Shown: piece after piece, positions 4,666 to 5,578 of the stretch
Layout: each line of letters opens with the position of its first letter
Numbering within the stretch: the first letter of the stretch is position 1
Assembly (NCBI GenBank): GCA_024278215.1
Contig: JAJRTR010000051.1
Coordinates: 1 to 5,578, forward strand
Direction: 5' to 3'
Length of the DNA stretch: 5,578 nt
DNA from: a bacterium
GTDB lineage: Bacteria; UBP15; UBA6099; JAJRTR01
Translations under genes and position numbers: made by a program
The notes under the pieces: model-generated
Seen by the model: the letters and a program-made list of their open reading frames with translations, nothing else
Told to the model about the DNA's origin: nothing
The model's database searches: none

Positions 4666-4714
4666 CGGATTTCTCACGGTTTTTCACCCACGTTTGTGAA
4701 ATACGCAGGCTACT

Positions 4715-4739
4715 CTACTATACTTCTGTGTAGTAGTTT
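4715..4739 (+). terminator. Hairpin with short T tract, second possible terminator
   Basis: CTACTATAC (4715-4723) pairs with GTGTAGTAG (4728-4736) over 9 positions, including one T-G wobble, with the 4-nt loop TTCT. Only three T residues follow, so it is a poor intrinsic terminator. It may be a backup terminator or just an RNA hairpin between operon and gene 4. Confidence 0.3.
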
Positions 4740-4751
4740 GCGGCAATCTTA

Positions 4752-4775
4752 ACATATTGCAAAACAACAATATGT
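4752..4775. repeat. Perfect 8-bp inverted repeat upstream of the gene 4 promoter (possible operator)
   Basis: ACATATTG (4752-4759) is the exact reverse complement of CAATATGT (4768-4775), separated by 8 nt. The half-site centres are 16 bp apart, about one and a half helical turns. It lies about 40 bp upstream of the -35 box of gene 4, a position suited to a dimeric activator or an upstream operator. No T tract follows, so it is not a terminator. Confidence 0.45.
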
Positions 4776-4815
4776 CGACATTAGAGCTTATGCCACATAT
4801 CATTTTATCATAATG

Positions 4816-4843
4816 TTGACAAAGGTTCGTTATGTGATACAAT
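4816..4843 (+). promoter_or_regulatory. Sigma-70-type promoter of gene 4
   Basis: A perfect -35 box TTGACA (4816-4821), a 16-nt spacer and the -10 box TACAAT (4838-4843, 5 of 6 to consensus). The -10 is preceded by TG at 4835-4836 as in extended -10 promoters. Transcription would start near 4850, giving a leader of only about 19 nt. Gene 4 is therefore independent of the glycan operon. Confidence 0.7.
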
Positions 4844-4853
4844 TAAAATAGGG

Positions 4854-4860
4854 AAAGGAG
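4854..4860 (+). promoter_or_regulatory. Strong Shine-Dalgarno of gene 4
   Basis: AAAGGAG ends 8 nt before the ATG at 4869. It matches the 16S anti-SD well and settles the start codon. Confidence 0.75.
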
Positions 4861-4868
4861 AAAAACAA

Positions 4869-5405
4869 ATGGATAATAAAACATTGCGAGAAAAGATTTT
4901 GAAAATTGAAAGCACGGCGAAAAAATGTCATGAGTTGAGCATTATGAGGGGATATGATGATGATTTAAAGGAGATGCTTCTGAAAATCATAATCGACTCA
5001 AACAGAATAATTGAGGGTATCGAAAACGACCCGGATGTGTTAAGCGGAGCTGTCAAGAGACGTATCTTCCCCGGAGGGATACATACAAAAGATCGAATCG
5101 AGGAAAACAGACGTGAAGACATTCACATTGTTGCTTACTGGATGTCCAAGTACGAACATGTTGATTTGTTTCCTCAATACAATCAGACAGATGCATTTAA
5201 TTATCTTTCAGGAGTTTTAGGGATCAAACATAACACCCTGAAAAATTATAGGGATTCTTTTGATCCATATACCGGGAGTCACAGAAGAGGGTGGGTAGAT
5301 GGGCCTCGCAGTGATATGAATAGAAGAGTTTTCAATCGTCTTGAAAAGCTGAACAGAGAGGAGGTCCTGGAGATGGTAAAAAGGATAATTGTTAAGTATA
5401 AGTGA
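4869..5405 (+). CDS. Small soluble protein of unknown function; C-terminal half resembles a domain of restriction/defence-associated proteins
   Basis: A 178-residue charged protein with no signal peptide or membrane segment, so cytoplasmic. Residues 1-55 look helical. Residues 84-95 (EDIHIVAYWMSK) start a second helical block. Residues 108-128 (DAFNYLSGVLGIKHNTLKNYR) look like a helix-turn-helix-like unit, running into RDSFDPYTGSHRRGW (128-142). The last 30 residues form a basic/acidic helix (FNRLEKLNREEVLEMVKRII). From memory, a short domain with a 'lgvk.nTlKN.RD.FDp...n.R.GW' pattern occurs in or next to restriction endonucleases and other defence genes; I could not check this. No nuclease motif such as HNH or PD-(D/E)xK is evident, so the protein may be a DNA-binding or specificity part without its partner. 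Start is secure (strong SD, own promoter). The base composition differs from the upstream operon, and a probable IS end follows 40 bp later, suggesting horizontal acquisition. No T-tract terminator follows. Confidence 0.8.
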   Translation: MDNKTLREKILKIESTAKKCHELSIMRGYDDDLKEMLLKIIIDSNRIIEGIENDPDVLSGAVKRRIFPGGIHTKDRIEENRREDIHIVAYWMSKYEHVDLFPQYNQTDAFNYLSGVLGIKHNTLKNYRDSFDPYTGSHRRGWVDGPRSDMNRRVFNRLEKLNREEVLEMVKRIIVKYK

Positions 5406-5444
5406 GAATTTTGCTATTTATGAAATATGCTATGAGATGCCGCC

Positions 5445-5463
5445 GCTGGATTAAAAATGACCC
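5445..5463 (+). repeat. 19-bp direct repeat, copy 1 (IS21-like terminal repeat)
   Basis: GCTGGATTAAAAATGACCC. It matches copy 2 at 16 of 19 positions, with a 24-bp period. Repeats ending in (A/T)ATGACCC in short-spaced series are what I recall from the ends of many IS21-family elements, where the transposase binds. Confidence 0.6.
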
Positions 5464-5468
5464 TTTAT

Positions 5469-5487
5469 GCTGAAGTAATAATGACCC
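5469..5487 (+). repeat. 19-bp direct repeat, copy 2 (IS21-like terminal repeat)
   Basis: GCTGAAGTAATAATGACCC, followed by a fourth C. It differs from copy 1 at three positions. The 24-bp period places both copies on nearly the same face of the helix. Confidence 0.6.
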
Positions 5488-5542
5488 CACAGTAAGACAA
5501 TATAATACCAGTAACAGGGAGAGGAAGCAAGGGCAAAGGGAA

Positions 5543-5556
5543 GCCCCCATGGGGGC
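5543..5556. repeat. Perfect 14-bp G/C palindrome
   Basis: GCCCCCATGGGGGC is a perfect self-complementary palindrome with no T tract directly after it. A smaller palindrome, TAGGGCCTA, follows at 5561-5569. In an IS end this could form a structure that limits read-through transcription or hides a translation start. The ATG at its centre reads into a TAG after four codons, so it is not a gene start. Confidence 0.5.
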
Positions 5557-5578
5557 GGCGTAGGGCCTAATTTTGTTG

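Follow-up and report, generated by a model that had tools for sequence, protein, structure and literature searches.

Genomic context of gene 4

The window analysed here is one whole contig (C21) of 5578 bp, from a source genome of 4.5 Mb that is distributed over 207 contigs and is 95% complete. Upstream of gene 4 lie the three genes of a glycan operon, followed by an AT-rich gap of 281 bp. The operon encodes a TPR protein that is truncated where the contig begins, a Wzy_C protein of the O-antigen-ligase type (548-2443), whose C-terminus bears TPR repeats, and a large membrane protein, whose match to LIC_10190 was below threshold. Start and stop codons overlap within the operon.

Gene 4 (4869-5405, forward strand) runs from ATG to TGA and encodes a stand-alone protein of 178 aa, formed by a mostly helical N-terminus of about 80 residues and a restriction-associated module. 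An equally long ORF appeared in 2 of 2000 random sequences built with a dinucleotide model of the same 850-bp region, and homologues of the C-terminal half were found in several phyla. Considering both the rarity of such a length at random and these homologues, gene 4 is a real gene and not a chance ORF. The initial annotation had given it a promoter and an RBS of its own and a composition unlike that of the glycan operon, and these features were all recovered. A predicted sigma-70-like promoter site, TTGACA-16-TACAAT with an extended TG before the -10 (4816-4843, forward strand), matches the consensus in 11 of 12 positions, and a near-consensus RBS, read as GGGAAAGGAG (4852-4861, forward strand), is located 7 nt before the ATG. 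The GC content was 38.7% in gene 4 and 35.2% in the gap 5′ to it, compared with 53.8-56.8% in the upstream genes. Taking into account that other sampled contigs of the same genome have 43-51% GC, the operon is GC-rich for this genome and gene 4 is AT-rich.

Upstream of the promoter, about 40 bp before the -35, there is a palindrome, ACATATTG-N8-CAATATGT (4752-4775), which from its sequence is a possible operator but may be due to chance, given that 157 of 2000 random sequences matched it and it is not significant alone. It was also possible to see three successive inverted repeats upstream of gene 4 (4679-4704, 4715-4736, and 4745-4782), the last with a perfect 8-bp arm; they are candidate operators, and the best one is not significant alone.

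At 32 bp downstream of the gene 4 stop codon begins the end of a repeated mobile element (5438-5578), which runs to the end of the contig. The sequence from 5438 is repeated in contigs C173 (99%), C140 (100%), and C155 (99%); the three matches begin at the identical base (query position 39) and their left flanks are unrelated. Since it recurs in three contigs, always from the same base and next to a different sequence, the assignment of this stretch as a mobile-element end is well supported, which bears out the probable IS end proposed in the initial annotation and accounts for the contig stopping inside the element. Contig C140 likewise stops within the repeat and C173 ends less than 70 bp from it, and C155 keeps just the first ~88 bases of the element end, with other sequence after them. 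The shared end is possibly a non-autonomous or decayed IS21-like one. The repeat holds two copies of AATGACCC, and from these an IS21-like end may be proposed, the family assignment being only suggestive. No complete element with this end, having istA/istB between TG...CA ends and repeated terminal motifs as in IS21, was found assembled. Contig C73 was considered as the continuation beyond the element, as it begins in an IstB fragment, and was discarded because its end sequence differs. This fragment (C73, 1-474) is truncated at the contig start and carries a different IS21-like end, and the genome therefore has more than one such element.

The C-terminal module and its relatives

Searches with the full-length gene 4 protein gave nothing usable in Pfam, NCBIfam, PHROG, PADLOC, or PDB. 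By tblastn against plasmids, residues 82-174 were found to match two proteins annotated as "DUF3883 domain-containing", in both cases at the N-terminus. A three-row alignment was then searched against GTDB genomes and a 386-genome sample, yielding 13 loci in the former and 2 genomes in the latter, and one more was added later, which gave 18 relatives in total, some of them near-copies (L003/L016 and L015/L018). A match in genome G056 was spurious (an amidase), and one in G533, partial and weak, was left out. Short tblastn matches of DUF3883 proteins to the minus strand of the window at about 5433-5480, mostly within the repeated element, were taken as chance.

The module comprises about 95 residues (residues ~82-175; 5112-5393, forward strand), and the limits of 80-178 suggested initially were about right. 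A profile built from the other 15 sequences, with gene 4 left out, scored the gene 4 protein at 73 bits (E about 1e-21), while the best of 1000 shuffles reached 6.8 bits. In 16 aligned sequences the invariant residues, in the numbering of the window, are A89, Y90, K125, R128, D129, D132, R139, G141, and V170, every one of them retained in the gene 4 protein; the core motif NTLKNYRDSFDPY...RRGW that had already been pointed out corresponds to residues 122-142, where it had been placed. Pfam has no model for the module (weak HTH matches, best E 0.005), no relative of it was found in viral contigs and phage genomes, and in a tree of the module the gene 4 protein was placed nowhere with support. 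The ~80-residue N-terminus gave no relative, and no second example of the gene 4 architecture was found. A stand-alone form of a restriction-associated module without a Pfam model is unusual.

In 17 of the 18 relatives the module is N-terminal to another domain, namely, a DUF3883/NOV_C putative REase (13), an HNH nuclease (2), or a McrB-like AAA_5 ATPase (2). NOV_C was taken as PF13020 and HNH as PF01844; L041 was counted as DUF3883 through a PADLOC match over that region, and the HNH fusions were assigned by Pfam match in L024 and by alignment in L023. In L012, which with 43% identity across 93 residues is the closest relative, the module is C-terminal, as in gene 4. The N-terminal ~200 residues of this protein (7287-8297 of its locus) have no Pfam match and are possibly an unnamed restriction-associated domain; a homologue of this domain occurs on a Priestia megaterium plasmid, in a Dcm/Sau3AI-type restriction island.

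Restriction or defence genes were present in 13 of the 18 loci. All or most of the operon Vsr - Dcm - module+DUF3883 - GHKL ATPase - Z1 - PD-(D/E)XK - AIPR is found in L013 and, by BLAST clustering, in L014, L016, L017, L020, and L022; this type of operon gave PADLOC matches to MzaB, C, D, and E and has DUF4420 annotated between Z1 and AIPR. The annotation of L003 and L004 is similar to this arrangement. Among the remaining loci, L019 adjoins EcoRII, L021 adjoins DUF2357-PDDEXK_7, L027 adjoins Dcm and Vsr, L041 adjoins Dcm, L012, alone among the relatives, sits behind PglZ and BrxL in a BREX-type locus, and L015 adjoins TIR and caspase-like proteins. In this last one, from a Desulfobacteraceae MAG, the caspase-like and TIR-like proteins (5996-8750 of the locus) are directly upstream of the module+DUF3883 protein, a possible abortive-infection arrangement. 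No defence gene was seen among the annotated neighbours of L023, L024, and L028, and none that could be classified was seen in L018.

The tie of the core domain to restriction enzymes, proposed in the initial annotation, is thus sustained by the fusions to nucleases or a McrB-like ATPase and by the repeated linkage of the homologues to restriction and defence genes, and no competing housekeeping family was found. From these sequence comparisons the link of the module to restriction and defence is firm, and the fusions alone suffice for it.

Predicted structure of the module

AlphaFold models were calculated with 14 sequences. The full-length gene 4 protein reached a pLDDT of 84, and the module alone a pLDDT of 88.8 and a pTM of 0.84, with five helices. 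Among these there is a predicted helix-turn-helix pair, residues 106-117 and 121-135 (5184-5273, forward strand), which bears the invariant K125, R128, D129, and D132. The N-terminus is predicted to begin with a two-helix hairpin, residues 3-27 and 31-53 (4875-5027, forward strand). Comparison of the module with the PDB gave weak matches, the best with Z 4.0 (rmsd 4.2, 73 aligned residues), and Foldseek E values of 1.8 or more; most of these weak matches were to HTH DNA-binding domains, and the best included transposase, homeodomain, LysR, and MntR. In the fold search with the full-length model the N-terminal helices dominated and no meaningful match was obtained. Structure prediction, which had been recommended for this region, provided a confident five-helix model with an HTH-like pair and no strong structural match. 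The HTH assignment is soft because nothing exceeded Z 4.0; according to the model, the fold of the module is likely HTH-like.

A small protein without an enzyme domain, with a predicted helix-turn-helix pair, its own promoter, and a palindrome before the -35, could be a controller-like transcription regulator, whose module would act on its own promoter or on that of a neighbouring mobile or defence gene. We consider this decidedly improbable. The relatives fuse the module to nucleases or AAA ATPases and not to regulatory domains, and the palindrome carries little weight given its frequency in random sequences.

It could also be postulated that the module serves for protein-protein docking, joining nucleases to GHKL, Z1, or BREX machinery, in which case gene 4 would be an adaptor or a decoy. 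The all-helical fold, the modest charge (net about +5), the absence of any DNA-binding domain that matches it strongly in structure, and the occurrence with several effector types would be consistent with such a role. However, in the part of their loci that was annotated, the HNH fusions L023 and L024 have neither GHKL nor Z1 as a neighbour, and the invariant K and R fall in the predicted second helix of the HTH-like pair. Docking is the least probable of the alternatives considered here.

Search for a partner

The gene 4 protein contains neither a nuclease nor any Pfam domain, and no NOV_C (PF13020) follows the module as it does in the DUF3883 proteins. The first reading of the sequence had stated that no nuclease or methylase is visible with the core domain; GHKL ATPase, Z1 helicase, PD-(D/E)XK, and AIPR were absent from the window, whose contig ends at 5578. 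In the source genome, at 95% completeness, DUF3883/PF13020 was not detected and PglZ (PF08665), by which BREX would be recognised, was not matched. The only cytosine methylase of the genome is located on another contig (C29), as a 252-aa ORF directly followed by an adenine-methylase-like ORF (L042, 959-2440); the pair looks phage-derived.

These results bear on the main rival explanation, that gene 4 is a relic: the last gene of a defence locus broken up by mobile elements, expressed and functionless. The proximity of the mobile-element end to the stop codon, the failure to find DUF3883 and PglZ in the genome, and the solitary position of gene 4 behind an unrelated glycan operon agree with it. 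Nevertheless, gene 4 is intact and is preceded by the promoter and RBS described above, all the family-invariant residues are kept, and no convincing nuclease remnant was found in either flank. In addition, the end of gene 4 coincides with the end of the module, as in L012, which indicates that the element did not truncate it. We regard the relic as unlikely.

Proposed function of gene 4

Considering all the above, we propose, with a probability of about 0.5, that the product of gene 4 is a target-recognition or adaptor subunit, in stand-alone form, of an anti-phage system of the restriction type, and that its partner was lost or lies beyond the element. For the gene 4 copy itself we infer DNA binding, docking of a partner, and a role in defence. 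The module would bind DNA, recognising either a sequence or a state of modification, and would place a nuclease or an ATPase there; the short, mostly helical N-terminus, in the place of the enzyme domain, would dock the partner or drive dimerisation. The partner gene would lie on the far side of the mobile element whose end starts at 5438, unless it has been lost. The fusion of the module to three types of effector agrees with a role in recruiting effectors to DNA.

A wider version of this proposal, which we put forward as doubtful, is that several unrelated restriction and anti-phage effectors (DUF3883, HNH, McrB-like, and BREX-linked) recruited the module independently, as a specificity domain that has no name yet, and that gene 4 is the first stand-alone form seen, with its nuclease in trans. 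If it were true, a recognition module common to these proteins would link several poorly understood defence systems and would be a specific candidate for the means by which these select the DNA they target. The stand-alone form of 178 aa would be a convenient small protein for testing the binding of the module.

Comparison with known systems

The L013-type operon corresponds to the MORC/paraMORC R-M systems of Iyer et al. 2008 (PMC2292703), and similar operons have been noted to resemble MzaABCDE (PMC9523054). DUF3883 was named a novel REase domain (PMC3710099) and is presumed to be a Type II REase (PMC10609329). A description of the module was absent from the papers searched.

In the DUF3883/NOV_C putative REases of the Dcm-Vsr-GHKL-Z1-AIPR systems, the module makes up the N-terminal ~100 residues, which have about 28-32% identity and share with gene 4 the invariant A, Y, K, R, D, D, R, G, and V. 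The gene 4 protein differs from them in having no NOV_C, in its extra N-terminus of ~80 residues, and in the absence of visible system genes. The McrB-like AAA_5 relatives of Clostridium bowmanii (L021) and genome G264 (L027) also have the module at the N-terminus, whereas the gene 4 protein has no ATPase. In the HNH-fused proteins of Shewanella mangrovi (L024) and Marinomonas pontica (L023) the same module is N-terminal, with 23% identity; unlike gene 4, they carry their own HNH nuclease, and their annotated neighbours are not defence genes. The L012 protein (336 aa, JALUTY010000051.1), from the BREX-type locus, differs from gene 4 in its unclassified N-terminal domain of ~200 residues and in its neighbours, PglZ, BrxL, and AAA_21, and it shares with gene 4 both the C-terminal position of the module and the same endpoint.
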